A stretch of DNA of 46,708 bases from NCBI RefSeq assembly GCF_005780165.1, contig NZ_VAUV01000029.1, forward strand, positions 1 through 46,708, read 5' to 3'. Under the pieces are notes generated by a model. That model worked only from the letters and a program-made list of their open reading frames with translations. It ran no database searches and was not told the DNA's origin. This document shows, one piece after another, positions 8,201 through 46,708 of this stretch. Both the position numbers and the translations under genes were made by a program. How positions within the stretch are numbered: position 1 is the first letter of the stretch; each line of letters begins with the position of its first letter. Source of the DNA: Phragmitibacter flavus (GTDB lineage Bacteria; Verrucomicrobiota; Verrucomicrobiia; Verrucomicrobiales; Verrucomicrobiaceae).

Positions 8201-8887
8201 ATGTTGAGCAAAGCATCCTACCTCCTCCCGCTCATCGCCTGCCAGATCCTGCTGGCCGGGTCCCTCAACGCCGCCACCATGCTCATTGACTTCGGCCTTG
8301 GCTCCCTCAGCGACACCACCGGAAAAGGCCCCACCACCGGACTCGCGCAAACCTGGAACAACTACACCGACACCTCCGGTGCCACCAACCTTGCTCTCGT
8401 CGACACCTCCAATCTCAGCACCGCCATTATTCTCTCCACCAGCGGCAGCTTCAACGTTCTCAACGAAGCCGCCAACCCCATCGGTGCCCCCTATCCCAAC
8501 ATCGCAGCAGGCGACGCCTTCTTCAACAACCCCGCCCGAACCCTCACCTTCTCCGGACTCGACCCCCTTCTCACCTACAACATCACCGTTTACGGATACG
8601 CGAATCGCTCCGATTCCCGACTTACCAACGTCAACATCAACGGCGTCATCCAATCCTACGAACCCTCCAACACCTCCACCGGCAACCTCGACGGCGGCTT
8701 CGTCACCTTCACCGGCCTCGTCCCCAACGCCTCCAACCAAATTGCCCTCACCCTCACCACCTCCACCGGCAACTACATCCTCAACGTCATTGAGCTCACC
8801 TCCGTCCCCGAACCCTCCCGCGCGCTGCTCCTCACCACCGGCCTGCTTCTCAGCTTCCGCCGCCATCGCCACCGACCCAGGCAGTAA
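8201..8887 (+). CDS. PEP-CTERM sorted exported protein
   Basis: The product is 228 residues with an N-terminal signal peptide (SKASYLLPLIACQILLAGSLNAAT), a beta-rich body of about 170 residues beginning MLIDFGLGS, and a C-terminal PEP-CTERM tripartite signal: VPEPSRALLL, a short hydrophobic segment and the basic tail RRHRHRPRQ. PEP-CTERM proteins are cut and anchored or released by exosortase and often belong to the extracellular matrix. The body has no motif I can assign; it has the look of a galactose-binding or malectin-like jelly roll. It heads a run of three PEP-CTERM genes. No exosortase gene is in the window. Confidence 0.85.
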   Translation: MLSKASYLLPLIACQILLAGSLNAATMLIDFGLGSLSDTTGKGPTTGLAQTWNNYTDTSGATNLALVDTSNLSTAIILSTSGSFNVLNEAANPIGAPYPNIAAGDAFFNNPARTLTFSGLDPLLTYNITVYGYANRSDSRLTNVNINGVIQSYEPSNTSTGNLDGGFVTFTGLVPNASNQIALTLTTSTGNYILNVIELTSVPEPSRALLLTTGLLLSFRRHRHRPRQ

Positions 8888-8921
8888 CACGAACTCGCAA
8901 ACCTGCCTCAACCACCCATCG

Positions 8922-9773
8922 ATGAACCCGCTCCACCTCCTTCCTGCGGCCCTGATCACCCTGGTCCTGCTCAGCAGCACCCAGGCCGCCACGGTCGCCC
9001 ACTGGCGATTTGAAGGCGACACCACCACCTGGCTTCAAGACTCCAGCAGCAACGCGCATCACCTTTCAAATACCAACAGCACCTCCACCCAGCTTCTCCT
9101 GCCCGCCACGGGCGATGGCTCCTCCTTCGCCAATCCCATCCCCCAGTCCGGACTTCCCAACCTGTCCGCCACTTCTTTCACCGGTTCCGGATCGGGCATC
9201 ATGGCCACCGCCGGCAGTTCCTCCTGGACCTCAAACACCTTCACCATTGAGGCCATGGTCAACATCAGCAACACCACTGGCCTGAAAACCATCGTCGGCC
9301 ACCTCTCCCAAACCCTCGGACGCAGCTGGTTGCTCGGGATCCAAAACAACCAGCTCTCCATCCTGCTCGGCGATGGTGCCAGCGCCACGGAAACCTATCA
9401 CACCCCCTCATCCCCCAACTTCACCCTCGCCCTCGACAAGGACTACTACGTCGCCGTCGCCGTCAATCTCAATGCCGTCAACGCCTCTGAACGCCTCACC
9501 TTCTACATTCAGAACCTCACCGACGACGGCCCCCTCATTTCCACCCTCTTCACTTCCCTCTTCACCTCCCTCGAAGGATCAACCGACGGCCTCGCCATTG
9601 GCTCCACGGGCCACGCCTCCTCGCGATTCACCGGCCTCATCGACGAAGTCCGCTTCTCCAACACCACGCTCTCCGCCAGCCAGCTCCTCGTCCCCGAACC
9701 CTCCCGCGCCCTCCTCCTCAGCCTGGGTGCCGCCCTTTTCATCACCAATCGCCGCCGCAATCTCAGTCCTTAG
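8922..9773 (+). CDS. LamG-domain PEP-CTERM protein, tandem paralogue A
   Basis: Starting at ATG 8922 the product is 283 residues. The frame is open much further upstream, but the signal peptide NPLHLLPAALITLVLLSSTQAAT and the parallel with the next gene fix this start. A LamG/concanavalin-A-like fold (Laminin_G_3 type) spans about 25-245: VAHWRFEGD, FTIEAMVNISN, YYVAVAVNLN, GLIDEVRFSNTTLSASQL. It ends in a PEP-CTERM signal, VPEPSRALLLSLGAALF plus NRRRN. The likely role is extracellular glycan or matrix binding. Its TAG stop (9771-9773) lies in the TTAG that begins a heptamer repeat. Confidence 0.87.
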   Translation: MNPLHLLPAALITLVLLSSTQAATVAHWRFEGDTTTWLQDSSSNAHHLSNTNSTSTQLLLPATGDGSSFANPIPQSGLPNLSATSFTGSGSGIMATAGSSSWTSNTFTIEAMVNISNTTGLKTIVGHLSQTLGRSWLLGIQNNQLSILLGDGASATETYHTPSSPNFTLALDKDYYVAVAVNLNAVNASERLTFYIQNLTDDGPLISTLFTSLFTSLEGSTDGLAIGSTGHASSRFTGLIDEVRFSNTTLSASQLLVPEPSRALLLSLGAALFITNRRRNLSP

Positions 9774-9819: not shown

Positions 9820-9869
9820 AGCCCCACGAGCCTCGTCAAACCGTCGCGAACCTGCGTCAATGACTGGTG

Positions 9870-10703
9870 ATGAACCCGGTCCACCTTCTGCCTGCGGCTC
9901 TAATTAGCCTGATTCTCCTCAGTTCCGCCCAAGCCGCCACGGTGGCCCACTGGCGTTTCGAAGGTGACAGCAGCACTTGGCTTCTGGACTCCAGCGGCAA
10001 TGGCAATCACCTCACCAACGGCGGCAACGGAACTTCTTACGTCCTCCCCACCAGTGGTGCAGGCTCTGCATTTTCCGATCCCATTCCTCAAACCGGCACC
10101 CCCAACCTCAGAGCCCTCAGCTTCATCGGCGGCGGCACCGGCCTGCTCCGTGCACCAGACAGTCCCGCTTGGACCACCCCGACCTTCACCATTGAGGCCC
10201 AAATCAATCTGAACGCGGTCGGCGCCCTTCAATCCATCGCCGGCCACTTTTCAGGTGCCTCCGACCCCCTCACCCGCGCCCTGCTCTTTCATGTCAATAG
10301 CAGCAACAATCTGAGCGTCATCATCAACAACAACACCTTCTCCTCGACCTTGAATCTCAGCGCTGGAACCGACTATTTCGTGGCTCTTGCCGTCGATCTG
10401 ACCGCCCCGGAATCCCAGCGCCTCACCTTCTATCTTCAAGATCTGACCAACGGCGGAACCCTCCAGCAAAGCGTCCGATCAGCCAACGTCACCTCCGTCA
10501 ACAACACCACCGCCGACTTCTCCATCGGCAGCACCGGCAATCCCAGTTCCCCCTTCAACGGCCTCATCGACGAAGTCCGCTTCTCCAACAGCACTCTCAC
10601 CGCCAATCAACTCCTCATCGCCCCCGAACCCTCCCGCTCCCTCTTCCTCTGCCTGGGCCTCGGCCTCGTCTTCACCCATCGCCGCCGCAACTCACTAAAG
10701 TGA
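9870..10703 (+). CDS. LamG-domain PEP-CTERM protein, tandem paralogue B
   Basis: The product is 277 residues from ATG 9870; a GTG directly before it is a possible alternative. It is closely related to the preceding gene: NPVHLLPAALISLILLSSAQ, then VAHWRFEGDSSTWLLDSSGN, FTIEAQINLNAVGALQSIAGH, YFVALAVDLTAPESQRLTFY, GLIDEVRFSNSTLTANQL. The C-terminus APEPSRSLFLCLGLGLVF with RRRN is a PEP-CTERM signal. The sequence upstream of both genes is also alike (CGCGAACCTGCGTCAA against CGCAAACCTGCCTCAA), which supports a tandem duplication that included the leader. The expected location is the cell surface or extracellular matrix. Confidence 0.88.
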   Translation: MNPVHLLPAALISLILLSSAQAATVAHWRFEGDSSTWLLDSSGNGNHLTNGGNGTSYVLPTSGAGSAFSDPIPQTGTPNLRALSFIGGGTGLLRAPDSPAWTTPTFTIEAQINLNAVGALQSIAGHFSGASDPLTRALLFHVNSSNNLSVIINNNTFSSTLNLSAGTDYFVALAVDLTAPESQRLTFYLQDLTNGGTLQQSVRSANVTSVNNTTADFSIGSTGNPSSPFNGLIDEVRFSNSTLTANQLLIAPEPSRSLFLCLGLGLVFTHRRRNSLK

Positions 10704-17201: not shown

Positions 17202-18089
17202 ATGAAGACTTTACCGCAGCCACTTCGAATCGCAGTGCAAATGCTTTTCGTCGGCGTATTCTGCCCATCCCTTCCCGCAGCCACCCTCATCTACTACAAC
17301 AGCGCGACCAGCGGCAATTCCGTGACCAATCTCGGAACTCTCGGAGCTGCGGGCAACGGCACCATCACCACCGCCGGCACAGGTTCCGTCACCACTGTCG
17401 CCACCGGCGGCCCTTCAGGTGCCGGCGACGCTTTTCTCAACCTCAGCAGCACCACCTTGAATGGTGGCTGGGTCACCGCGCCTGCCAACCTGCTGCCGAA
17501 TTTTCGCAACAACAACTGGTCCGTCAGTGGCTTCTTCAACCGTCCGGCCAACACCAACTCCAGCGACGTCATCCTCCACTTCGGCAGCGGCGACACCTTC
17601 GGCAGCGAAAACGAGCTCTACCTCTACGGCCAGTCAGGCAACAACAACGTCCGGCTCGAACATTTCCCCGGCAATGGGCTCGGAAGCCTCCAGTCCAGCC
17701 TCGCCCTGAACACCTGGCACAGCTATGCCATCACCTTCACCGCCTCCGGACTCAATGACGGAACCGGCACCCTTGCCCTCTATCTCAACGGCAACGCCGT
17801 GGGGTCCAGCAGCAACTTCAACCTCAGCACCGGCGGCAGTGGTGACGGGGGTGTTGCCCAAACCCTGCAAATCGGCGGCATCGGCTATGCCTCCAACAGT
17901 GGCAGTGCCGACCGCGCCCTCACCGGAGGCATCGATGAATTCGCGGTTTACGATCTCGTCCTCAACAGCACCGAAGTCGCCGCCCTGCACAACCGCACCA
18001 TCACCCCCCTCGACGTCATTCCAGAACCCAGCCGCGTCCTGCTGATCCTGGTTGCCGCCATGGGATGGTTGTCCATCCGTCGTCGTTAA
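17202..18089 (+). CDS. LamG-domain PEP-CTERM protein
   Basis: I place the start at ATG 17202 (295 residues), because MKTLPQPLRIAVQMLFVGVF is a normal signal peptide; ATG 17184 is possible and the open frame reaches further back into the previous gene's 3' end. After the cleavage site (PAATLIYYN) comes a LamG/concanavalin-A-like fold: NNNWSVSGFFNRP, LNTWHSYAITFTASGLNDGT, LALYLNGNAVGSSSNF, GGIDEFAVYDLVLNSTEVAAL. The C-terminus VIPEPSRVLLILVAAMG ending RRR is a PEP-CTERM signal. It is more distant from the 8922/9870 pair than they are from each other. The likely place is the cell surface; the ligand is unknown. Confidence 0.85.
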   Translation: MKTLPQPLRIAVQMLFVGVFCPSLPAATLIYYNSATSGNSVTNLGTLGAAGNGTITTAGTGSVTTVATGGPSGAGDAFLNLSSTTLNGGWVTAPANLLPNFRNNNWSVSGFFNRPANTNSSDVILHFGSGDTFGSENELYLYGQSGNNNVRLEHFPGNGLGSLQSSLALNTWHSYAITFTASGLNDGTGTLALYLNGNAVGSSSNFNLSTGGSGDGGVAQTLQIGGIGYASNSGSADRALTGGIDEFAVYDLVLNSTEVAALHNRTITPLDVIPEPSRVLLILVAAMGWLSIRRR

Positions 18090-18123
18090 AGCCTCGCAAG
18101 CTTTTACCCTTCATCCCTTCGCC

Positions 18124-19383
18124 ATGAATCGCCGCCAATTCATCCACACCACCGCCATCGCCAGCCTGGCCAGTTCCCTCGCCGCCATCCCCGCCGTCGC
18201 GCAAGGCAAACGCAAACCCCGCATCCTCCTGCGCAACGGCTGGCAAAGCATCAACATCGGCGACATCGCCCATTACCTCGGCATGATGGAGCTCATCAAA
18301 GCCCACGGCATCGACGCCGACGTCCGCTTCTGGTCCAGCAACATGGAGAACGGTGCCGACACCCTCTTCCAAAAAGAATTTCCCGAAGTCCCCTTCTTCC
18401 TCAACGACAAGGAAAAAATCGCCACCGCTTTCGAAGAATGCGACTTCCTCCTTCACGGCTCCGGCTCCGGCTTCGTCGCTTATAAAGACACCATGCGCTG
18501 GCACAAAGAAACCGGCAAACCGTTTGGCATCATCGGCATCTCACTCACCACCATCAACGACGACGTCATCAACACCCTTAAACAGGCCGATTTCGTTTAT
18601 TTCCGCGACGGCGTGTCCGCCCAAAAAGCCCTCGACCTCGGCGTCCCATCCCCACCCCATATGGGCTGGGGACCCGACACCGCCTTCGGTGTCGTCAAAC
18701 TTCGCGACGACGAAAAAGCCCTCGCCTTCATGAAGGAAAACAACCTCGAAGAAGGCAAATTCCTCTGCTGCATCCCCCGCTACCGCTGGACCCCGTTCTG
18801 GCTCGTCAAAAAAGGCCGCCCCTTCGAACAATTCAAACAAGACCGCAACGACGAAAAGAAAGAAGCCGACCACGCCCCCTATCGCGAAGCCATCATCCAG
18901 GTCACCCGCCAGACCGACATGAAAGTTCTCATCACTTGCGAGGACCAAACCCAAATCCCCCTCGGCAAGGAAATGATCTACGACCCCCTTCCCGACGACG
19001 TGAAAAAGAAAGTCGTCTGGCGCGATAACTACTGGCTCACCGACGAAGCCCTCAGCGTCTACGTCCGCAGCGCCGGTCTCTTCGGCAATGAAATGCACAG
19101 CCCCATCATGTGCATCGCCAACGGCATCCCCGCCACCGTCGGTCGCTGGGACGAACAAACCAACAAAGGGTTTATGTGGCGTGACATCGGCCTCGATGAA
19201 TGGCTCTTCACCATGGACGATGAAGCCCGTGTCGCCAAAATCCCCGAGACCATCCTTGCCATCGCCAAAGATCCCGCCGCCGCCAAAGCCAAAGCACTCA
19301 AAGCCCGCGACATCGTCCTGGAGAAGCAAAAAGAGCAGTTCGACAATCTCAAAAAATCTCTCACCACCCTCGCCCTCAAGTAA
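18124..19383 (+). CDS. Polysaccharide pyruvyl transferase family protein with Tat signal
   Basis: The 419-residue protein starts at ATG 18124 with a twin-arginine signal, NRRQFIHTTAIASLASSLAA, cut near AVAQ. The mature part resembles the polysaccharide pyruvyl transferase / WcaK family (PF04230 type): ILLRNGWQSINIGDIAHYLGM near the N-terminus, a middle LLHGSGSGFVAYKDTMRWH, ADFVYFRDGVSAQKALDLGV, and a C-terminal SAGLFGNEMHSPIMCIANGI. Cytoplasmic members transfer pyruvate from phosphoenolpyruvate to glycans, so Tat export suggests a different activity. It follows a PEP-CTERM gene by 34 bp. Codon use is C-rich like its upstream neighbours. Confidence 0.82.
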   Translation: MNRRQFIHTTAIASLASSLAAIPAVAQGKRKPRILLRNGWQSINIGDIAHYLGMMELIKAHGIDADVRFWSSNMENGADTLFQKEFPEVPFFLNDKEKIATAFEECDFLLHGSGSGFVAYKDTMRWHKETGKPFGIIGISLTTINDDVINTLKQADFVYFRDGVSAQKALDLGVPSPPHMGWGPDTAFGVVKLRDDEKALAFMKENNLEEGKFLCCIPRYRWTPFWLVKKGRPFEQFKQDRNDEKKEADHAPYREAIIQVTRQTDMKVLITCEDQTQIPLGKEMIYDPLPDDVKKKVVWRDNYWLTDEALSVYVRSAGLFGNEMHSPIMCIANGIPATVGRWDEQTNKGFMWRDIGLDEWLFTMDDEARVAKIPETILAIAKDPAAAKAKALKARDIVLEKQKEQFDNLKKSLTTLALK

Positions 19384-34115: not shown

Positions 34116-35048
34116 TCAAGGCAGCTTCTCCGCCGGAACCGCCTGCGCCTTCAACTCCGCGATCCTCTTTTCCTGAGCCGCCACCAGAGGATCAAACTGC
34201 TCCATTTCCTTCGCATTCTGACCCTGCTCATGCTTGCGAAACCCATGCAGATACGTCTCGTTCGCCGGCCGCCAGCGATTAAAAAACAGGAAATCCTTGT
34301 GCACCACCGTCGCCCGAATCTGCTTCGCCAATGGCTGCTCCACATCAACCTTGGGCAGTTGCAACGCCCCAAGCAACTCCTGCACAAACACTCGATAGCC
34401 CGCCTCGTTAAAGTGCACCCCATTGTCCGTCAACTTCGGCGTCGCCCCCGCTTTTTTCCCCGCCCCCATCAATTCATAAACGTCCACAAAGGTCGCATCC
34501 TGCTTCGCCGCAAACTCCTTCAATGCATCCCGCACACTGCCAAGCTCCACATTTGCCTCCGTCAGGTCCGGCATCGGTGTCCCCATGTTCTCAAACGGAG
34601 GAGGCGACACAATGATCACCCGCAAGTTCGGCGACTTCGACCGAGCCAGATCCAGCAAATTGCGGTAGCCCGTGATGAAAGCGGGCAGTTTGATCAACCC
34701 CTCAAACGGCATGTCCGCCCCATAGCAGGCCACCAGCACCGTCGGTTTCAGTTGCTCCAAATGATTTCCCAACCGCTGCAATCCCTCCGCAGGCGGACCA
34801 AAATACGACCGCGCATGCCCAAACACCGTGTCTCCGCTCCATCCCAGATTGCGCACCGACAACGTCTTCCCCGGTGTGGCCAGCTGCAGCTCTGTCTCTA
34901 AAAATCCATACTTCTGCTCCCGCTCCACCAAGGTGCCGCCCAATAAAACAATGCGGTCATTGTTCTTAAACTCAAACGCCGCCGCACCACCACACCAAGA
35001 GCCAAGCAGGCTCAATGACACAAAAAAAACAATACGGGAAAAGTTCAT
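34116..35048 (-). CDS. Exported SGNH/GDSL-hydrolase-like protein, nucleophile position altered
   Basis: From ATG at 35048 the product is 310 residues; an upstream open extension lacks signal-peptide character, while NFSRIVFFVSLSLLGSWCGG is a good signal. The SGNH fold can be traced: block I IVLLGGTLVEREQKYGF, block II NLGWSGDTVFG, block III VACYGADMPFEG, and block V LTDNGVHFNEAGYRVF, with Asp and His kept. In block I the GDS nucleophile motif reads GGT, so Ser is replaced by Thr and Asp by Gly, as seen in some PVC relatives next to membrane-bound dehydrogenases. Ester hydrolysis is therefore uncertain. The last 70 residues are charged and helical (EQFDPLVAAQEKRIAELKAQ). It is the upstream member of an operon with the dehydrogenase, and divergent from the giant repeat-protein gene. 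Confidence 0.85.
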   Translation of the reverse strand: MNFSRIVFFVSLSLLGSWCGGAAAFEFKNNDRIVLLGGTLVEREQKYGFLETELQLATPGKTLSVRNLGWSGDTVFGHARSYFGPPAEGLQRLGNHLEQLKPTVLVACYGADMPFEGLIKLPAFITGYRNLLDLARSKSPNLRVIIVSPPPFENMGTPMPDLTEANVELGSVRDALKEFAAKQDATFVDVYELMGAGKKAGATPKLTDNGVHFNEAGYRVFVQELLGALQLPKVDVEQPLAKQIRATVVHKDFLFFNRWRPANETYLHGFRKHEQGQNAKEMEQFDPLVAAQEKRIAELKAQAVPAEKLP

Positions 35049-35258
35049 CGGAGGAAAAAAGGGAGGACTAAACACCCTGAAAGCCGGGAAACTTTCTGGG
35101 GACCGGCATTTTGACCAGCACCTCAAGCATTTGCAAGCCAACAACCATCGCAAAAACAAAAGAAACCCGTAGCGAATTAATTACCCATTGCATTGCTTCG
35201 CATGGGAAAAAATTAGCTGGTCAAAAGCTCTCCTTTTTGACACGCTACTGGTCGCACC

Positions 35259-38200
35259 ATGAATAATCCTCGCACCTCCCGGCATCGCTTCCTCGCTTTG
35301 CTCGTCATTTTCGGATTGGCGGCTTCACCATCACTGCCCGCGATTGACTATTTCTGGCAAGGCACCACCGACTCCAATTTCACCACCGTTGAAAACTGGC
35401 GGACCGAAATCACCGGTGCCACCGCAGGTGCCGTCCCCACCGGCACCGACATCGCCCATTTCAACGCCGATGGCCTCGTCAACGCCTTCACCTCCCTCGG
35501 TGCCAACCGCGCCCTTCAGGGAATATCCTTCAACAGCAACTCCGCCACGCCCATCACCATCGGCACCCTCAACGACTTCATCCTCTCCCTCGGCTCCTCG
35601 GGCATCGACGTCTTGTCCGGAGCAGGTGCCCACACCATCAACTCCGCTCTCACTCTCACTGCCACCCAAACTTGGAACAACGTCAGCGCCGATCCCGCGC
35701 CTTTCACCATTGCCGGCAACTTCACCACCGGCACCAACACCCTCAATCTTACCGGCACCAATGGCTTCACCGTCAGCGGCGCGACCAACGTCAACGGAGT
35801 CACCACTCTCAACAATACCGGCTCGGGCACCCTCCTCCTCAGCGGCCCCATCACCCTCGGCAATACTCTAAGCCTCAATGGCACCGGCGACATTAACCTC
35901 AGCGGCACCACCACCCTCGGTGCCAGCCGAGTTATCAATGTCGAAAACACCGGTGGCGTCAGCCTCGGCAACATCACCAACTCCGCCACCGCCACCGTTA
36001 GCATCAACGCCTTCGACACTGCAGCTCCTGAAGTCAACGGCGTCATCTCCAACGGCACCGGCTCCACCTCCGTCACCCTCAACAACCTTTCCGGTGCCAC
36101 CGGCACCATCGACTTCAACGCCGCCAACTCCTTCACCGGCACCCTCATCATCGTCCAGGGCCAGCTCAACGTGAACGCCTCCAACCTCGCCAACACCTCC
36201 ATCAACCTCGGTGCCACCAACACCAACGGCGTCGGCCAGACCGCCACCCTCAACCTCGCCGCCGGCACCAACTACCGCATCGGCACCGTCACCCAACAAG
36301 CCAACTCCGCCGGCGGCATCATCAGCGGCGGAGCCGGAGCCACCCTCTCGCTGGACACCGCCAATCGCACCCTCAACATCGGCAAAACCACTTCCACCGG
36401 CCCCGACCTCCTCATCGGCGTCGGCATCGTCAACGGCGGCACCACCGGACGCGCCCTCACCAAAGACGGCACCGGCACCGTCCAGTTCGACGGCGTCAAC
36501 ACCTTCACCGGCACCTTTTCGGTGCGCAACGGCACCGTCATCCAGAATGCCAGCCAGACTGCCTCAGGCGCTCTCACCATGGGCGGCATCGCCGACGTCA
36601 CTCCCGTCCTTACCATCAACAACGGCGTTACCTACCGCCTCGGCGGCACCCTCTCTCAATCCTCCACCGGCAACGGTGGCATCATCAACGGCAACGGCAC
36701 CCTCGGCCTCTTCAGCAACCGCACGTTTTCCATCGGCGACGCCGCCTCAGCCCCCATCGATCTGCTGATCTCCACCTCCATCACCGACGGCGACGCGACC
36801 GCCCGCAACATCACCAAAACCGGCGCCGGCACCCTCTCCATGCAGGGAGCCAACAGCTACAGCGGATCGACCAGCCTTTTTAACGGCACCCTCATCCTCG
36901 ACTACAGCTTCAACAACACCGATTCCCGGCTCCACGACAGCGCCGCCCTCGCCATGCAGGGAGGAAGACTTGAACTTCAGGGCAACGACACCGGCCCCAC
37001 CATCGAAACCACCGGCACCACCACCATCAACAGCGGCAGCAACACCATCGCCCTCGTCGACGACGGCCATGCCGTCGACCTCTACCTCGCCAGCCTCACC
37101 CGAACCGCCCTTTCTACTACCACCGGCATCGCCACGGGCGTCGTCAACTTCCAGCTCAGTGACCCCACCCTCACCACCATCACCGCAGCCGCCGGAACCG
37201 CCAACAACGCCAACGGATTCCTCGGCGGCTGGGCCACCCACAACGGCAATCGCTGGGCCACCAAAAACGTCGACAACCAGATCGTTGCCTACACCGGCAT
37301 CACCAAAAACGACAAAACCACCTGGGCCGCCAATGACGACATCGTCGTCACCAGCCCCCCCACCGGCATCCTTTCCGCCCCTGCCGTCTCCACCCTCATC
37401 CTCGACAATAACGCCAGCACCACCCTCGACCTCGACAACAACGCCCGCAGCCTCACCCTCACCAACAACGCCCTCCTCGTCGGCTCCACCGCTGGTGCCA
37501 ACGACACCACTCTTAATGGCAGCCAGATCATTGGTCATCTGATCCCCAGCGGCGTGACCGAAATGATCATCACCAACCAATCCCCCGGCGTCTTCACCCT
37601 CAATGCCACCCTCGGATCCGCCACTTCCCTGGTTGGCAACTCTCTCAGCGTTGTCTACGGCGGCCCCGGCCTCATCCACCTCACCGGCACCAACTTCAAC
37701 CTCGGCACCACCACCATCCACGGCAACGTTCAGGTCAGCGGTGGCAATGCCCTCGCCGACTACTCCACCCTCACCCTCGGCAGCGCCTCCAGCAGCCTCT
37801 CCCTCAACAACTCCAGCGAAACCATCGGCACCCTCTCCAGCCCAACGACCCAAACCGCCAGCATCGACCTCGGCACCAGCGGGCACCTCACCATCAACCA
37901 ACGCAACGACGCCACTTATAACGGCACCTTCACCGGCGGCGGCACCATCACCAAAGCTGGCAACAACCGGCTCAGCCTGTCCTCCAGCAACCTCTCGGGA
38001 TTCACCGGCAACGTCGAAGTGCTTGGCGGCAACCTCGAACTCAACATGGACACCAGCGGCTTCTCCGCCATCTCCAGCCTCCTCCTGCGCGGCGGCACCG
38101 CCCTCATCGCTCAAAACGGCAGCGCCAGCCGCGACAAAATCGCCAACACTGCCACCATCATCCTCGAAGGCACCACCGCCAACGGACTGCGCATCGCCAG

Positions 38201-41200
38201 CAACCAAAATGGCGGTCGCACCGAAACCGCCGGCAAACTCGAACTCAGCGCCGGAGCCAACACCATCACCCTCGCCAACACCGCCACCAGCCCCACCGCC
38301 GCCGTCACCACCCTGACCTTCAGTGACGCCACCGACGCCTTCGAACGCTCCAACAACGCCACCCTTCTCGTCCGCACCTCCATCTCCGACCTCGGCGGCC
38401 CCTCCACTTCGCTGGCCACCCGCGTCACCTTTGCCTCCGGCATCGCCGACCAGCTCATCGGCAATGGCGCCATCGACCCGCTCACCATCACCGACACCGC
38501 CATCCTTCCTTTCGCCATCGGTGGCATTTCCGACGTCAACAACCCCGGCACCAGCTTCCTTACCATCGGCAACAATGGCCTCCGCATCCTGCTGGACACC
38601 GAATACGCCAACAATTACGCCACCGCCGCCAGCACCGATAACCTCAGCCTCAACACCACCGCCACCGCTCTCGCCACCGCCACCTTCAACGCCCTTCGCC
38701 TCGATACGACCACCGGCATCGTCGATCTCACGGGCGCCCCCGGCTCCACCCTCACCCTCACCAGCGGTGCCCTCCTCGTCAGCGGCGGAGCCACCGCCAA
38801 TGGCAGCACCATCAGCGGTTTCGATCAAATCCTCGCTGGTGGGACCCCCGACGCCGTCCCTGATGAACTCATCATCTTCACCACCACCAGCAACGCCGCC
38901 CCCACCGCTGCCGTCACCACCATCAACTCCTCCATCGCCAACAACGGAGCCGCTCCCACCAGCCTCACCAAAACCGGCAACGGCACCCTCGTCCTCGGCG
39001 GCACCAACAGCTACACCGGCACCACCACCATCAACCAGGGACGCGTCGAATTCACCACCGACGCCAACCTCGGCACCGGCGGCCCCATTCGCATGGCTGG
39101 CGGCACCCTCGCCTGGACCGGAGCCAACACCACCGACATCTCCACCCGCGGCGTCCAACTCCTCGGACCCAGCTCATTCGTCATTCCCTTCCACGGCACC
39201 AGCGGCATCGCCGTCATCACCGGCAACACCTTTGATACCACCGGCAACACCGTCACCCTCACCCAGTCCATCGGACAAAATGGCAACGGCGGCCTCGTCA
39301 AAACCGGCACCGGCACCCTCAACCTCAACGGCGGCATTACCTACACCGGCAGCACCATCCTTCAACAAGGCACCCTCAACTTCTCCACCATTGCCGCCAA
39401 CACCACCTCCGCCCTTCACCAGATCGGCACCACCGGAACCCTCAGTTCCACCATTGCCGACGGACTCCACACCGGCTCCGTCATCGTCGGCGGCGTCTTC
39501 GGTGCCCAATCCGGCAACCTCTCCGGCAACCTCACGGTCCAGGGCGGCGACGTCAACATCGGCAGCGGCCAGGATGGCCTCCTCCTCATCGCTTACAAAG
39601 ACAACTCCGCCAGCGGGGGCTTCAACATCAAAGCCACCGCCAACTTCTCCGCCGCCGATTCTGTCACCGTCAACGTCGACCGCATCATCCTCGGCAGCAA
39701 CGCCACCTCCGGCAGCGCTTCCGGCACCGACGGCAACCTTCTGCTCTCCACCAGCGGCCCCAACCACCTCACCGCCTCCCGCATTCACCTCGCCGACTCC
39801 CCCGGTCCCGGCAACAACGCCACAGGCGACACCTCCAGCATCATCCTCGGTGACGCCGACAACACCATTCACGCCGACATGATCCTCATCGGCGGACGCA
39901 AAGCACGCGGCGAAATCACCGGCGATACCGGCACCTTCACCCTCCGCTCCCAGGACGGCCATGGCGGTGCCAACGTCTACCTCGCCGACAACGATGTCTC
40001 CACCGGCACCATCGCCAATGGCGTCCTCAACCTCAACGGCATGCAGGTGAACGCCATCATCAATACCCTCAACCTCGCCCGCCATCACTCAGGTGCAGGC
40101 GGTGCCAACGCCACTCTCAGCTACAACCTTGGCATCATCAAAGCCACCACCATCGAGATGGCCATCACCGACTTCCGCGGCAGCTCAACTTCCGACGGCA
40201 GCACTGATGCCACCATCAACCACGGCGGCACCGCTACTATGCAATTCCAGACCCTCAGCAAAGGCAACGGCGACGCCGTCTACAACTGGCAGGGCGGCAC
40301 CATCCAAAACCTCGCCAACGACAACCTCACCAATCAAAACGTCACCATCACCTTCAACGGAACCGGTTCCGCCACCGACCCCACCCTGCGCACCTTCACC
40401 GTCGACGAAAACCAGACCGCCACCTTCCAGGCCGATGCCGAATTTGCCGGCGCAGGCTCCTTCACCAAAAATGGCGAAGGCGACCTCAACCTTCTCGGCA
40501 CCAACATCAACACCGGCAACGTCCACATTGCCCAGGGCACCCTATCCCTCGAAGAAAGCGGCTCCATGAACGACGCCGCCTGGTTCAACATCGCCACCGA
40601 CGCCACCCTCAAAGTCGCCGACCGCACCACTTCCTCCTACGCCAGCGACGCCGTCATCTCCGGCACCGGCACCATCGACGCCACCGACGGAACCTTCACC
40701 GTTGGCAGCAACATCGGCACCATCAATACCGTCGGCTCCCTCCGTCCCGGCGCTTCCAGCACCAACCACAGTCTCGCCAGTGCCACCACCGTCGGCGACC
40801 TCACCGGTTCCCTTACCATCCAAGGCAACCTCGTCCTCGAAGGCGACGCCCTTCCTCTGGAACGAGCCGTCCTGCAACTCGCCAGCAGCAACCGCAACGC
40901 CTCTTCCTCCCTCGGCAACTACGCCAACATCGCCGCCTGGGTCGACAACATCGACACCGACTTCGCCAGCTTCATGGAAGGCAGCGGCGGCAATCACGAC
41001 TTCATCGACATCAACGGCGACCTCACCCTCAATCTCAACGGAGGCATCACGGTGGAAACCCTCAACGGCTACACCGGCGTCTTTGGCGATGTCTTCAACC
41101 TCCTCGACTGGGTCGACCTCAACAACAACGGCTTTACCATGGGCGAACGCTACCGTCTCGGCACCGAGACCGGACTCGATCTCGTCCTCCCCACCCTCGC

Positions 41201-41336
41201 CGCCTCCTATCAATGGGACACCAGCCTCTTCGCCACTCACGGCGTCCTTGTCGTCGTCCCTGAACCCACCCGGACCACCCTGCTGACCGCCGCGTTTGCC
41301 TTCCTTCTCCTCCAACGCCGCCGCAAACAAAAGTAG
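35259..41336 (+). CDS. Giant autotransporter-associated beta-strand-repeat PEP-CTERM protein A
   Basis: The 2025-residue protein has a signal peptide (RFLALLVIFGLAASPSLPA) and is built almost wholly of Gly/Thr/Asn-rich beta-strand repeats. Clear PATR units (TIGR02601 / PF12951 type) include LTKDGTGTVQFDGVNTFTG, ITKTGAGTLSMQGANSYSG, LTKTGNGTLVLGGTNSYTG near residue 1236, and VKTGTGTLNLNGGITYTG. This predicts a long beta-solenoid stalk. There is no autotransporter barrel; instead it ends with VVPEPTRTTLLTAAFAFLLL and RRRKQK, a PEP-CTERM signal. The likely role is a surface or matrix adhesin-like fibre. Its TAG stop (41334-41336) lies inside the inverted-repeat element that follows. A stretch near its 3' end (40386-40978) is nearly identical to one in the next gene. 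Confidence 0.93.
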   Translation: MNNPRTSRHRFLALLVIFGLAASPSLPAIDYFWQGTTDSNFTTVENWRTEITGATAGAVPTGTDIAHFNADGLVNAFTSLGANRALQGISFNSNSATPITIGTLNDFILSLGSSGIDVLSGAGAHTINSALTLTATQTWNNVSADPAPFTIAGNFTTGTNTLNLTGTNGFTVSGATNVNGVTTLNNTGSGTLLLSGPITLGNTLSLNGTGDINLSGTTTLGASRVINVENTGGVSLGNITNSATATVSINAFDTAAPEVNGVISNGTGSTSVTLNNLSGATGTIDFNAANSFTGTLIIVQGQLNVNASNLANTSINLGATNTNGVGQTATLNLAAGTNYRIGTVTQQANSAGGIISGGAGATLSLDTANRTLNIGKTTSTGPDLLIGVGIVNGGTTGRALTKDGTGTVQFDGVNTFTGTFSVRNGTVIQNASQTASGALTMGGIADVTPVLTINNGVTYRLGGTLSQSSTGNGGIINGNGTLGLFSNRTFSIGDAASAPIDLLISTSITDGDATARNITKTGAGTLSMQGANSYSGSTSLFNGTLILDYSFNNTDSRLHDSAALAMQGGRLELQGNDTGPTIETTGTTTINSGSNTIALVDDGHAVDLYLASLTRTALSTTTGIATGVVNFQLSDPTLTTITAAAGTANNANGFLGGWATHNGNRWATKNVDNQIVAYTGITKNDKTTWAANDDIVVTSPPTGILSAPAVSTLILDNNASTTLDLDNNARSLTLTNNALLVGSTAGANDTTLNGSQIIGHLIPSGVTEMIITNQSPGVFTLNATLGSATSLVGNSLSVVYGGPGLIHLTGTNFNLGTTTIHGNVQVSGGNALADYSTLTLGSASSSLSLNNSSETIGTLSSPTTQTASIDLGTSGHLTINQRNDATYNGTFTGGGTITKAGNNRLSLSSSNLSGFTGNVEVLGGNLELNMDTSGFSAISSLLLRGGTALIAQNGSASRDKIANTATIILEGTTANGLRIASNQNGGRTETAGKLELSAGANTITLANTATSPTAAVTTLTFSDATDAFERSNNATLLVRTSISDLGGPSTSLATRVTFASGIADQLIGNGAIDPLTITDTAILPFAIGGISDVNNPGTSFLTIGNNGLRILLDTEYANNYATAASTDNLSLNTTATALATATFNALRLDTTTGIVDLTGAPGSTLTLTSGALLVSGGATANGSTISGFDQILAGGTPDAVPDELIIFTTTSNAAPTAAVTTINSSIANNGAAPTSLTKTGNGTLVLGGTNSYTGTTTINQGRVEFTTDANLGTGGPIRMAGGTLAWTGANTTDISTRGVQLLGPSSFVIPFHGTSGIAVITGNTFDTTGNTVTLTQSIGQNGNGGLVKTGTGTLNLNGGITYTGSTILQQGTLNFSTIAANTTSALHQIGTTGTLSSTIADGLHTGSVIVGGVFGAQSGNLSGNLTVQGGDVNIGSGQDGLLLIAYKDNSASGGFNIKATANFSAADSVTVNVDRIILGSNATSGSASGTDGNLLLSTSGPNHLTASRIHLADSPGPGNNATGDTSSIILGDADNTIHADMILIGGRKARGEITGDTGTFTLRSQDGHGGANVYLADNDVSTGTIANGVLNLNGMQVNAIINTLNLARHHSGAGGANATLSYNLGIIKATTIEMAITDFRGSSTSDGSTDATINHGGTATMQFQTLSKGNGDAVYNWQGGTIQNLANDNLTNQNVTITFNGTGSATDPTLRTFTVDENQTATFQADAEFAGAGSFTKNGEGDLNLLGTNINTGNVHIAQGTLSLEESGSMNDAAWFNIATDATLKVADRTTSSYASDAVISGTGTIDATDGTFTVGSNIGTINTVGSLRPGASSTNHSLASATTVGDLTGSLTIQGNLVLEGDALPLERAVLQLASSNRNASSSLGNYANIAAWVDNIDTDFASFMEGSGGNHDFIDINGDLTLNLNGGITVETLNGYTGVFGDVFNLLDWVDLNNNGFTMGERYRLGTETGLDLVLPTLAASYQWDTSLFATHGVLVVVPEPTRTTLLTAAFAFLLLQRRRKQK
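40386..40978. repeat. Near-identical 593-bp block, copy 1
   Basis: Aligns without gaps, at an offset of 5730 bp, to 46116-46708. I found two substitutions (40672 C to T, 40790 C to T in the second copy). Upstream of 40386 the two genes diverge quickly. Copy 2 reaches the window edge, so the true length may be greater. Confidence 0.93.
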
Positions 41337-41390
41337 AAGGTCCGTCCCGGGCCTTTCCTACTTCCTCAAGGCTCGAGACGAGCATTCTAC
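41333..41390. repeat. Degenerate copy of the GTAGAAGG inverted-repeat element
   Basis: Arms 41333-41355 and 41368-41390 match in 18 of 23 pairs and resemble the perfect copy at 8065-8123, with a 12-nt spacer. The first arm begins GTAG, and its TAG is the stop codon of giant repeat protein A. Confidence 0.85.
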
Positions 41391-41420
41391 TTTCCACACA
41401 CGACCTCCCCCTTGCCTCTC

Positions 41421-44400
41421 ATGCCAAAATTCACCCTCTGCATCAGCACCGCCCTCATCCTCTGCGGCACCCTCCACCCGCTTCACTCCGCTGATCGTTA
41501 TTGGGGCGGCAATGCCAGTGGCTCATTGCAGGATCTCGCGAACTGGTGGCAGGATGCCAATGAAACCAGCGCCGCTGCCGCCATCCCGGGAGCCGCCGAC
41601 CTCGCCATTTTCAATACCTCTCTCTTTGGCGCACCCGACAACGTCATCAGCACCCTCGGAGCCAACACCTCCCTCCAAGGCATGTTGTTCAACGGTGCCT
41701 CCACCTCCGCCATTACCCTCGGCACCCTAAACGACTTCACCCTCACCCTCGGTTCCGCTGGCATCACCCAACAGACTGGCGCCGCCGCCGTCGCGATCAA
41801 CTCCAACATCATCGTCGGAGCAGTTCAATCTTGGAACAACCAAAGCCTCGACGCCCTCACCATCGCCGGCAACGTCGCCCTCAACAACAACCTCACCCTC
41901 AGCGGCACCGGTCCCATCTCCATCACCGGCCCCATCACCACTTCAGGCAATCGCACCCTCACTGTTAGCAATACCGGCGATGTCAGCATCGGCAGCTTCA
42001 TCAACACCGGCACCTTCACCTTCAACGTCGGCACCGACTCCAGCCTTGATGCCAACGGCGTCCTCTCAGGCTCCGGTGCCATCGAAAAAAACGGTGCCGG
42101 CACCCTGTTCTTCAACAATGCCAACACCAATACCGGTAACCTGCGCATCCGCGACGGCACCGTTTACGCCACTCAATCCAACATCGGCGGACTTCAGCTC
42201 ATCTTCGGCGCCAATGCCAGCACCATCGGCACCGATGGCCCCGGCACCCTCACCCTCGACAACAACAGCGCCGTCGAATTCAAACTCGGCAACACCGTTT
42301 TCGTCCACCTCACCAGCGACGGCGGCCTCATCAACAGTGACGGCGGTGGTGCCGCCACCCCCTTCGTTTCCTTGAACGCCACACGCACCTTCATGATCCG
42401 CGACGCCGCGCCCGACGTGGACCTGCGCGTCAGTGTCGGCATTGCCAACGGCACCGCCGCATCCGGCATCAACAAACGCTCCACCGGCACCCTGCTCCTC
42501 GAAGGTGTCAACACCTACACCGGAGTGACCAGCGTCGACCGCGGCAAGCTCATCCTCGACTATCAGTTGAACAACGACGACAACAAACTCAGCAACTCCA
42601 CCGCCACCAACCTGCGCGGCGGCACTTTGGAACTCCGCAGTCACAACACCAACGCCACTTCGGAAACCGTTGGCTCCATGGGTATCGGCCCCGGTGCCAG
42701 CACCCTCAACCTTGTCAGTGTCAACGGCCAAACCCTCGACCTCAACGTCACCGGCAACCTCACCCGCGCCGCCAACACCGGCGTCGTCAACCTGGTCACC
42801 GCCACCCCCGCCCTCGCCCACCTCAACGTCACCGGGGCTGGCACAGTGAACAATACCTCCGGCTTCCTCGGCGGGTGGTTCACCTACAACGGCAACCGTT
42901 GGGCTACACGACAAGGCAACGAAATCGTCGCCCTCGCCGGCACCCTTCAAAACGACAAATCCCTCTGGACCAACACCGACAACATCATCGTCAACACCCC
43001 CACCACCGGCAGCCTCAACACCCCGGAAATCGCCTCCCTCATCCTCGACAACCCCGCAGGTGGCATCGTCGCCCTAGACAATCACGCGTCCGCCCTCACC
43101 CTCAGCCAATCCTCGCTGCTCGTTTCCTCCAACACCACTTCCGACGTCACCCTCTCAGGTGGCCAGTTGATGACCAAAAACGCCGCCTTCAACGCCTCCA
43201 ATGAACTCATCATCACCAACCTCTCCGCCGCCACCTTCAACCTCGGCACCAACCTAGGCACCAGCAACACTTTCCTCACCGCCGTCCAAAACGTCACCCT
43301 CGCGGGACCCGGATTGATCAACCTCACCGGTGCCAGTTCCACCACCCCCGCCGCCTCTTTCACCATCCACGGCAACGTCCAGCTCTCCTCCTCCAACGCC
43401 TTTGGTTCCTACAGTGCCGTCGTCATCGGCGGCGGCGGCGACATGACCACCAACGGAGCCCGCCTCGCTATCAACGGTGGCACCGCCGTCATCGGGCGTC
43501 TCTCGGGAGGCGTCAGCGGCGACCACAACTTTCAGGAACTTGGCAACGGCGAAGTGGCGCTCGGCACCAACGGCAATCTCACCATCAACCAGACTGCCGA
43601 CGGCACCTACAGTGGCCTCTTTTCCGGCTCCGGCACCCTCATCAAGAAAGGGGCTGCTGCCCTCACCCTCCAGTCCACCACCTCCACCTTCAATGGACAA
43701 GTCCAGGCCTTCGGTGGCACCGTCAACCTCACTGGAAGCGCCAATACCCTCAGCGCCATCAGTTCCCTTCTCATTCGCGGCGGCTCGGTCAGTTCCTCCC
43801 AAAACCAGGACAACACCGGCATCAATCACATCCGCGACGCCGCCACCATCACCATGCAAGGAACCACCGGCAACGGATTGATGGTCACCAGCAGCCGCAA
43901 CACCCTCACCCAGACCGAAGTCTTCGGCGTCCTCAACCTCGACAGCAGCTCCAACACCCTCACCGTCGACAACACCATCGCCAGTCCGACCGGAGCCACC
44001 GCCGCCGTCATGACCTTCGGCCAGGCCAACTCCCTCACCCGCAGCAACAAATCCACCCTTCTGGTGCGCGGTCGCAACCTCGGCCTCACCACCCCCGTCG
44101 CTGGCACCCCCGCTTCACGTGTCACCTTCACCAACACCACCGCCATCGACGCCGCCCTCATCGGCAGTTCCAGCACGGCCCTATCCACCATGCTGCGCAT
44201 CCTCCCCTACGGCATTGGCGAAAGCAACTCGACCAGCACCGCCACGCTCGCCGCCGTCGGCAACTCCTTCCTCACCTACGGCGCAGGCGGCACCGGCCTC
44301 CGCACCCTCACCGACGCTGAATACGCCGCCAGCTTCATTACCGATACCAACGTCAGCCTCAATGCCACCACCGGCAGCCTCGCCGGAGGCACCCTCAACT

Positions 44401-46708
44401 CCCTCCGCATCGTCAATAACAGCGGAACCAACCCCGTGGCGCTTACCGGCAGTGGCGATCTTATCCTCACCAGCGGAGCCCTCCTCATGACCGCCGGAGC
44501 CACCGACAACGATGCCTCCATCAGCGGCTTCTCCTCCCTTACCAGCGGAACCACCGTCGCCGAACTCAACGTCTTCGTCACTTCCTCCAACAGCATCCCC
44601 AGCAACACCACCCTCACCCTCAACACCGCCATCATCGACAACGGCCAGCCCGTCTCCCTCACCAAATCCGGCGGCGGCACCTTGGTCCTCACCGGCAACA
44701 ACACCTACACCGGCGAAACCACCATCAACCAGGGCGTGGTTGAATTCGGCAACACCGGCACCGGCAACCTCGGCAGCGGCCTTCTCCGACTCGCAGGCGG
44801 CACCCTTCGTTGGGCAACCGGCAATACCACCGACATCACCGCTGGCAACCGCACCGTTCAATTCCTCGGCTCCAGCGTCTATCTCACCCCCAGCGCAGGC
44901 GGCAATGTCCTCAACCCCGGCAGCACTTTCGACACCGGCGCCAACAACGTCACCCTCGCCAACGCCATCGGCAACAACGGTTACGGCGGCCTCACCAAAA
45001 CCGGCACCGGCATCCTCACCCTCTCCGCCGCCCCCACCTACACCGGAGCCACCACCATCATGGAAGGCACCATCAACTTTCAAACCATCGCCCCCGACAC
45101 CAGCGATGCCCTCTACCTCATCCGCACCGCCACCGGAACCGGCACCGTCTCCGCCACCGTCGCCAACGGCCTCAACGTCAAATCACTTGTCGTCGGCGGA
45201 GCCTATGGAGCCGATGCCGGCTCCACCACCGGCAACCTCACCGTCAGCAGCGGTGCCGTGAACATCAATGATTCCGGCGGTTTTGTCCTTATCGGCTATC
45301 GCGACAGTTCCTCCGGCACTGGCAATACCGTTACCACCACCAGCACCGCCAACTTCACCAATGCCAGTTCCGTCACCCTCAACACCGCCCAGCTCGAACT
45401 CGGCGGTTATCGGGGTGGCGTGGGCACGGTCAACCTGAGCAGCATCGGCGTTCTGCAACTTTCCAATGGCGCCAACCAGATCACCACCGGCAGCATCATT
45501 GTCGGCCATGCGCCTTCCAGCATCAGCAACGTCGCTGGCACCTCCACCATCACCCTCGGTTCCTCCTCCAACATCATCAACACCGACACCATGGTGCTCG
45601 GTGGTGCCCGTTCCAGAGGCACCGTCACCATCCGCTCCGGCGGCAGCTTCACCCTGCGCGGCAGACAGGGCGGCGACACCGGCGCCAACCTCTTCATTGG
45701 CGACAACGACGCCACCGGCACCGGCGTCGACACCATCGGACTGCTCGACCTCACCAACGCCAGCAACGTCGACGCCATCATCAACCAACTCATCATCGGA
45801 CGCCTCGCCGGCACCACCGCCGGCGGCTCCGGTCAGGGCACCCTTACCTTCGACACCGGAAGCATCAACGCCACCACCATCCTCCTCGCCACCCCCAATT
45901 ACTCCACCGGCGTTACCACCAACGACATCGAAACCCAGGGCACCATCAATCAATGGGACGACGCCACCCTCCGATTCATGAACCTCAGCCAGGGCCGAGG
46001 CACCGCCAACTATAACTGGCAGGGCGGCACCATTCAAAACCTCGCCGGGGCTGATCAAACCAATCAAAACGTCACCGTCACCCTCAACGGTGCCGGTTCC
46101 GCCACCGATCCATCACTGCGCACCTTCACCGTCGACGAAAACCAGACCGCCACCTTCCAGGCCGATGCCGAATTTGCCGGCGCAGGCTCCTTCACCAAAA
46201 ATGGCGAAGGCGACCTCAACCTTCTCGGCACCAACATCAACACCGGCAACGTCCACATTGCCCAGGGCACCCTATCCCTCGAAGAAAGCGGCTCCATGAA
46301 CGACGCCGCCTGGTTCAACATCGCCACCGACGCCACCCTCAAAGTCGCCGACCGCACCACTTCCTCCTACGCCAGCGACGCCGTCATCTCCGGCACCGGC
46401 ATCATCGACGCCACCGACGGAACCTTCACCGTTGGCAGCAACATCGGCACCATCAATACCGTCGGCTCCCTCCGTCCCGGCGCTTCCAGCACCAACCACA
46501 GTCTCGCCAGTGCCACCACTGTCGGCGACCTCACCGGTTCCCTTACCATCCAAGGCAACCTCGTCCTCGAAGGCGACGCCCTTCCTCTGGAACGAGCCGT
46601 CCTGCAACTCGCCAGCAGCAACCGCAACGCCTCTTCCTCCCTCGGCAACTACGCCAACATCGCCGCCTGGGTCGACAACATCGACACCGACTTCGCCAGC
46701 TTCATGGA
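41421..46708 (+). CDS. Giant autotransporter-associated beta-strand-repeat protein B (partial, runs off the window)
   Basis: The frame from ATG 41421 stays open to the last base, giving 1762 complete codons and no stop. It starts with a signal peptide (PKFTLCISTALILCGTLHPLHSA), then YWGGNASGSLQDLANWWQD, matching the YFWQGTTDSNFTTVENW start of protein A. PATR-type repeats recur: IEKNGAGTLFFNNANTNTG, LTKSGGGTLVLTGNNTYTG near residue 1080, and LTKTGTGILTLSAAPTYTG. The last visible stretch (46116-46708) is almost identical to protein A. By analogy the missing end should carry about 115 more residues and a PEP-CTERM tail, but this is not seen. It lies 84 bp after protein A and is a tandem paralogue of similar length. 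Confidence 0.93.
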   Translation, partial: MPKFTLCISTALILCGTLHPLHSADRYWGGNASGSLQDLANWWQDANETSAAAAIPGAADLAIFNTSLFGAPDNVISTLGANTSLQGMLFNGASTSAITLGTLNDFTLTLGSAGITQQTGAAAVAINSNIIVGAVQSWNNQSLDALTIAGNVALNNNLTLSGTGPISITGPITTSGNRTLTVSNTGDVSIGSFINTGTFTFNVGTDSSLDANGVLSGSGAIEKNGAGTLFFNNANTNTGNLRIRDGTVYATQSNIGGLQLIFGANASTIGTDGPGTLTLDNNSAVEFKLGNTVFVHLTSDGGLINSDGGGAATPFVSLNATRTFMIRDAAPDVDLRVSVGIANGTAASGINKRSTGTLLLEGVNTYTGVTSVDRGKLILDYQLNNDDNKLSNSTATNLRGGTLELRSHNTNATSETVGSMGIGPGASTLNLVSVNGQTLDLNVTGNLTRAANTGVVNLVTATPALAHLNVTGAGTVNNTSGFLGGWFTYNGNRWATRQGNEIVALAGTLQNDKSLWTNTDNIIVNTPTTGSLNTPEIASLILDNPAGGIVALDNHASALTLSQSSLLVSSNTTSDVTLSGGQLMTKNAAFNASNELIITNLSAATFNLGTNLGTSNTFLTAVQNVTLAGPGLINLTGASSTTPAASFTIHGNVQLSSSNAFGSYSAVVIGGGGDMTTNGARLAINGGTAVIGRLSGGVSGDHNFQELGNGEVALGTNGNLTINQTADGTYSGLFSGSGTLIKKGAAALTLQSTTSTFNGQVQAFGGTVNLTGSANTLSAISSLLIRGGSVSSSQNQDNTGINHIRDAATITMQGTTGNGLMVTSSRNTLTQTEVFGVLNLDSSSNTLTVDNTIASPTGATAAVMTFGQANSLTRSNKSTLLVRGRNLGLTTPVAGTPASRVTFTNTTAIDAALIGSSSTALSTMLRILPYGIGESNSTSTATLAAVGNSFLTYGAGGTGLRTLTDAEYAASFITDTNVSLNATTGSLAGGTLNSLRIVNNSGTNPVALTGSGDLILTSGALLMTAGATDNDASISGFSSLTSGTTVAELNVFVTSSNSIPSNTTLTLNTAIIDNGQPVSLTKSGGGTLVLTGNNTYTGETTINQGVVEFGNTGTGNLGSGLLRLAGGTLRWATGNTTDITAGNRTVQFLGSSVYLTPSAGGNVLNPGSTFDTGANNVTLANAIGNNGYGGLTKTGTGILTLSAAPTYTGATTIMEGTINFQTIAPDTSDALYLIRTATGTGTVSATVANGLNVKSLVVGGAYGADAGSTTGNLTVSSGAVNINDSGGFVLIGYRDSSSGTGNTVTTTSTANFTNASSVTLNTAQLELGGYRGGVGTVNLSSIGVLQLSNGANQITTGSIIVGHAPSSISNVAGTSTITLGSSSNIINTDTMVLGGARSRGTVTIRSGGSFTLRGRQGGDTGANLFIGDNDATGTGVDTIGLLDLTNASNVDAIINQLIIGRLAGTTAGGSGQGTLTFDTGSINATTILLATPNYSTGVTTNDIETQGTINQWDDATLRFMNLSQGRGTANYNWQGGTIQNLAGADQTNQNVTVTLNGAGSATDPSLRTFTVDENQTATFQADAEFAGAGSFTKNGEGDLNLLGTNINTGNVHIAQGTLSLEESGSMNDAAWFNIATDATLKVADRTTSSYASDAVISGTGIIDATDGTFTVGSNIGTINTVGSLRPGASSTNHSLASATTVGDLTGSLTIQGNLVLEGDALPLERAVLQLASSNRNASSSLGNYANIAAWVDNIDTDFASFM
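46116..46708. repeat. Near-identical 593-bp block, copy 2
   Basis: Partner of 40386-40978, within giant repeat protein B and in the same reading frame. The block includes the segment coding ENQTATFQADAEFAGAGSFT and continues to the window edge. Confidence 0.93.

Follow-up and report, generated by a model that had tools for sequence, protein, structure and literature searches.

The window analysed here, 46,708 nucleotides that make up the whole of contig C29 in the 5.91-Mb, 44-contig genome of Phragmitibacter flavus (Verrucomicrobiaceae), ends in two neighbouring genes for giant surface-type proteins which share a nearly identical stretch close to their C-terminal coding ends. The question raised by this locus is how two otherwise diverged genes came to carry it. 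A preliminary description saw in it recent gene conversion or module exchange between surface proteins, possibly in the service of antigenic variation, with an assembly artefact at the contig edge as the dull alternative. Recent gene conversion between diverged tandem paralogs, laid over an older homogenised layer, turns out to be the best-supported reading, with a probability of about 80%; it is carried by the contrast in substitution rates and by the conflict between trees of different gene parts. The features involved are collected in Table 1.

Table 1. Features of the tandem gene pair and of the comparable pair elsewhere in the genome. Positions without a contig name refer to the window.
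Feature	Position	Strand	Description
Gene 1	35259..41336	+	2025-aa PATR beta-strand-repeat protein; PEP-CTERM motif VPEPTRTTLLTAAFAFLLLQRRRKQK at the C-terminus
5' flank of block	40251..40385	+	Intermediate similarity; gene 1/gene 2 dS 0.43, dN 0.21
Block, copy 1	40386..40978	+	Gene 1 residues about 1710-1907; 591/593 against copy 2
3' tail of gene 1	40979..41333	+	Includes PEP-CTERM; gene 1/gene 2 dS 0.28, dN 0.035
GTAG-type REP/REPIN-like hairpin	41330..41393	+	Immediately follows gene 1, whose TAG stop is part of the GTAG
Gene 2, 5' part	41421..46708	+	Same family; truncated where the contig stops, rest in contig C31
Block, copy 2	46116..46708	+	In gene 2; its last base is that of the contig; final 127 bp identical to C31:1-127
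Similar hairpin after gene 2	C31: about 485-547 (L020)		Resembles the 41330-41393 element
Tandem PATR/PEP-CTERM pair gB/gC	C18:89000-105360 into C33:1-615		Loci L021 and L022; here too the contigs part at the repeat, with a 127-base overlap

Two PATR-repeat proteins with a PEP-CTERM signal

Both proteins match the PATR profiles PF12951 and TIGR02601 over cut-off, and both reading frames are open, without inner stops. Gene 1 begins with a hydrophobic N-terminal segment (by eye), and for gene 2 we judge the ATG at 41421 a likelier start than the TTG at 41412, from which the protein would count 1883 aa. PATR is the only family listed by Pfam in gene 1 and in the window part of gene 2, and the lack of any match to an autotransporter beta-barrel there distinguishes them from PATR autotransporter-associated proteins; in place of the C-terminal outer-membrane beta-barrel of a classical type V autotransporter, both tails bear a PEP-CTERM signal. 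When the tails are scanned alone, TIGR02595 (cut-off 16 bits) matches the last 50 aa of gene 1 with 19.3 bits (E 0.0014) and the gene 2 tail in C31 with 17.8 bits (E 0.0044); scans of the whole proteins at E 0.001 list no such match. The Pfam PEP-CTERM profile PF07589 reaches 11.2 bits on gene 1, under its cut-off of 20.7, and gives no match on the gene 2 tail in C31, and the tail of a third paralog, gA on contig C18, has no PEP-CTERM match in the Pfam or TIGR library.

Three genome matches to exosortase (PF09721) lie over cut-off, which together with the TIGR02595 matches fits exosortase substrates, proteins marked by a C-terminal PEP motif, a hydrophobic stretch and a basic end. The two products are probably exported or surface proteins handled via exosortase. 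In their repeat profiles, their TIGR02595-type signal and the exosortase matches of their genome, they resemble proteins that combine PATR/TIGR02601 repeats with PEP-CTERM; PEP-CTERM proteins of Verrucomicrobia, with presumed sorting, are treated in PMC4960237. Such repeats are abundant in this genome, with at least 148 PATR matches among the best 150 of 315 candidates scored.

Extent and edges of the shared block

The gapless match of some 593 bp at an offset of 5730, with two substitutions, that had first been noticed by eye is borne out: 591 of the 593 bases are identical. The two differences are C/T exchanges, one at 40672 (T to I) and one, silent, at 40790. The longest identical run in the codon alignment of the two genes spans 286 bp, a length reached in none of 10,000 codon shuffles (maximum 53). 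At its 5' side the block has a sharp edge at 40385/40386, where 17 differences in the 69 bases 40317-40385 give way to none as far as 40671. The sequence just upstream had been called clearly diverged, which holds in part: 40340-40385 is only moderately so (8 of 46 positions differ), and strong divergence (about 60-66% nucleotide identity) begins upstream of about 40250. At the 3' side, where following the sequence past 46708 had been proposed, identity drops at once: the first base after 40978/46708 already differs between gene 1 and the C31 continuation of gene 2, and 30 of the next 352 positions differ (40979-41330), leaving about 92% identity. The block thus has two real edges, and 40978/46708 is its true end and not merely the end of a contig. 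The 40979-41333 tail is an older homogenised layer next to the recent block.

Relative to the stop codon, the block runs from -950 to -358, and the PEP-CTERM signal lies outside it, in a last window where the two genes agree at 89% of nucleotides. The C-terminal 480 residues of gene 1, modelled with AlphaFold (mean pLDDT 63.3), contain a strand-rich part, confident only to about residue 270, which we read as beta-helix-like, and a low-confidence helix at residues 460-479. The block corresponds to model residues 165-362: it starts inside the confident strand-rich part, crosses its end and excludes the PEP-CTERM. The suggestion that exchange keeps the membrane-proximal or sorting part the same does not agree with these limits, and the block looks like a recombination tract rather than a domain.

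The contig end

The last 127 bases of the window are the first 127 of contig C31, where the reading frame of gene 2 stays open until a stop at C31:480-482. A contig that stops where the block stops is what would be expected if a short-read assembler halts where two copies part. The order gene 1, block, gene 2, block, C31 is the sole simple linear one and would be nearly forced, although extra tandem copies are conceivable: beyond copy 1 the same contig continues into gene 2, and swapped exits would therefore close a separate 5.7-kb circle.

Divergence rates and phylogeny

Identity along the two genes is far from uniform, silent sites included. For dS, three segments of the bodies give 0.55, 0.51 and 0.49, the 5' flank 0.43 and the tail 0.28, against 0.014 for the block (computed on whole codons, so that one flanking difference is included). 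All these absolute values are rough, since biased codon use probably compresses dS within the genome. The non-uniform silent divergence that the preliminary description had proposed to look for is therefore present, with a tract far closer (dS 0.014) than the rest (about 0.5). In the same block, dS amounts to 0.50 between gene 2 and gA and to 0.59 between gene 2 and the ortholog from genome G007. Diversifying selection in the bodies, for which dN and dS values of about 0.5 each might speak, was considered and set aside, as dS between genes of one genome may be lowered by codon bias.

Trees of 12 rows were computed separately for body, block and tail. In the body tree, gene 2 groups with UBA11399 (100/99), these two group with gA (100/100), and gene 1 falls outside. 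The block tree unites genes 1 and 2 (100/100), as does the tail tree (98/96). Constraining the two genes to pair in the body lowers the log-likelihood by 78.7 and is rejected (p-AU 7.7e-6), by a test subject to the same model pull between long branches as the tree itself, where gene 1 sits on a long branch (1.12), has an unusual letter make-up and is flagged by the tool as unsure in placement. Tract and flanks thus conflict, with gene 1 as a long branch in the body, and in the block tree the paralogs of one genome are closer to each other than to orthologs, all of which come from other genera.

A second tandem pair and the generality of the pattern

A comparable case is provided by gB and gC. 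Their 3' region shows 13 differences in 531 bp, from -832 to -302 relative to the stop, and identity rises from 63.4% in the body to 92.0% over the C-terminal 300 aa. Here the 5' region is also similar (90-92%), and the middle parts, at 46-77%, are each other's best matches among the proteins compared. A 551-aa N-terminal query from gB found nothing at E 1e-20 in 18 other genomes.

Two of eight same-strand neighbouring pairs in this genome exceed 90% nucleotide identity over the C-terminal 300 aa, namely genes 1 and 2 (96.4%) and gB/gC (92.0%); the other six have bodies at 26-55% and C-terminal parts at 50-57%. This comparison left out the neighbouring 3396- and 5363-aa ORFs on contig C3 and a 1027-aa ORF before gA. 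The non-adjacent gene 2 and gA show no rise (body 67.9%, C-terminal part 68.8%). Among other genomes, in regions picked from listed matches rather than exhaustively and with some genes cut at the far end of the range, none of 12 neighbouring pairs was comparable, the best 300-nt window reaching 83.7%; two of the nine groups (G018 C165 and G015 C4) held one such ORF and yielded no pair. Modest C-terminal rises occur in G002 (63.6 to 74.4%) and G010 (58.5 to 71.3%). In the single-contig genomes G011 and G002, 20 PATR-gene regions each, covering only part of their PATR genes, were free of stretches linking different genes at a length of 120 bp or more and an identity of 88% or more. C-terminal homogenisation is therefore no constant habit of the family. 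Two of eight pairs here, no rise between gene 2 and gA and none of 12 pairs elsewhere suggest that chromosomal closeness plus enough similarity may be needed.

Among the matches listed, G001, G007, G011 and G018 each contain one with more than 50% identity to the C-terminal query. Each of 13 related loci, with flanks of at most about 10 kb, holds one family-matching ORF (11 are distinct, L133 and L136 being the G018 and G001 loci again); the names they carry are Prosthecobacter, Verrucomicrobium sp., Verrucomicrobiaceae and Verrucomicrobiales.

Hairpins and other repeats

The two hairpins that follow genes 1 and 2 fold with -28.9 and -38.7 kcal/mol (z -5.7 and -7.7). Their 20-bp arm has 67 genome matches at up to 2 mismatches and the reversed control none. 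The many arm matches, the hairpins and the GTAG end agree with the repeat part of the GTAG REP family described in PMC3733652, whose other mark is a RAYT transposase in the same genome. The Y1-transposase family PF01797 has 13 matches in the genome, some of them fragments and not typed as RAYT.

Several further repeats were observed. Two neighbouring window ORFs, 8286-9773 (a Laminin_G_3 protein) and 9867-10703, have 137 bp in common at 84% close to the 3' end of each, which may be a fainter case of what is seen in genes 1 and 2. The polysaccharide pyruvyl transferase ORF at window 18052-19383 has 165 bp at 86.7% in common with an ORF on C20 (L066). A 1730-aa ORF on the minus strand of C2 (L106 12641-17833) contains internal repeats with a spacing of about 150 bp, at 80-84% over up to 1.2 kb, and in G011 a tandem array with a period of about 144 bp and 92-95% identity (L126 10478-11877) lies a few hundred bases after the gene 2 ortholog.

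Alternative explanations

An assembly error at the contig edge, with copy 1 misjoined there to pass as copy 2, is very unlikely. The assembly is of short-read style, and the contig ends at the repeat with exactly 127 bases in common with C31, as happens likewise between C18 and C33; an overlap of this size resembles a k-mer overlap, which is typical of short-read assemblers. The copies differ at two sites, however, and have different flanks on both sides, swapped exits would produce the 5.7-kb circle, and the distantly related gB/gC pair has the same pattern. Even less can be said for strong purifying selection or an RNA element holding the block constant, an explanation we regard as having next to no chance of being right. 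The C-terminal region of gene 1 is indeed somewhat closer to relatives than its body is, but in the same block both copies are well separated from gA and from the G007 ortholog (dS 0.49-0.59, dN 0.30-0.33), and since these two diverge freely there, constraint cannot explain the identity of genes 1 and 2. More weight attaches to the possibility that gene 1 is a chimera, formed when a different body acquired a duplicate of the gene 2 3' end, the block being the trace of that capture. The position of the gene 1 body outside the group of gene 2, gA and UBA11399 is consistent with this, as are the similarity of the whole last 300 aa and the REP-type hairpin after both genes; the bodies align mostly at 50-75% with gaps, and a chimera built from a copy of the gene 2 3' end would look similar. 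Such an origin is nonetheless unlikely, because one event hardly explains a twentyfold difference in dS between block and tail, and because identity breaks off sharply at 40978, a point within the coding sequence that bounds neither a gene nor an element. Moreover, among the PEP-CTERM-type proteins of this genome that were compared, the gene 1 body best matches gA and gene 2, which indicates that the bodies are homologous.

The idea of an antigenic-variation or contingency locus, where conversion would be programmed surface variation, is unsupported and highly improbable. With their diverged bodies and shared ends, these giant surface-type proteins do recall babA/babB of Helicobacter pylori, the closest described parallel found: according to PMC4552749, which cites Pride and Blaser 2002, babA, babB and babC are adhesin-type genes of a pathogen with near-identical ends and a divergent middle, occupy separate loci, form chimeras by gene conversion and can carry phase-variable CT repeats. 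Genes 1 and 2, by contrast, stand in tandem and have no such tract inside them, and their N-termini are unlike (38-66% nucleotide identity), whereas those of gB/gC are alike (90-92%). Conversion here also brings the two proteins closer together instead of diversifying them, and both frames are open. The only simple tract in 34801-46708 is an A8 at 35022, before gene 1, and Tandem Repeats Finder reports short low-copy arrays only, of at most 5.8 copies. An expressed locus accompanied by silent partial donor cassettes is not what was found: DNA searches of the own genome with the block and with body parts (best 40 candidates each) revealed no partial copy that was both long and near-identical. 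The further block copies that had been envisaged did not appear, the best other match being a 73% paralog, and long body matches to other genes lie at 64-70%, with higher identities confined to short stretches.

Probable gene conversion in a family of giant repeat proteins

Gene conversion accommodates these observations as follows. Genes 1 and 2 would be old tandem paralogs for exosortase-type (PEP-CTERM) proteins with a long PATR repeat body, and homologous recombination between the neighbours would recently have copied a C-terminal part of about 593 bp non-reciprocally. Around this tract would lie an older and broader zone, converted or homogenised earlier and extending to the stop; the bodies, too diverged for frequent pairing, would go on diverging. 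The mechanism is presumably of RecA type, and the conversion may bring a functional benefit. Since the block of gene 1 is as close to outgroups as that of gene 2, the sequences suggest gene 2 as the donor; against this, the block tree does not keep UBA11399, the body partner of gene 2, beside it (90/89 and 91/88, unstarred).

In the open literature collection searched, no paper mentions both PEP-CTERM and gene conversion. The case is a new instance of a known process in a little-studied protein family, and it adds a clear example of gene conversion among giant repeat proteins. It also illustrates how, in such a genome, a recently converted paralog rather than an artefact can lie behind a break between contigs. 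With two distantly related pairs affected, a recurrent conversion hot spot might lie about 950-300 bp before the stop, in the C-terminal part of such tandem PATR/PEP-CTERM giants; this is a tentative and rather doubtful proposal. If it were true, the genome would preserve a shared interface for assembly or anchoring as the bodies diversify, and would thus act as a modular workshop for surface proteins.
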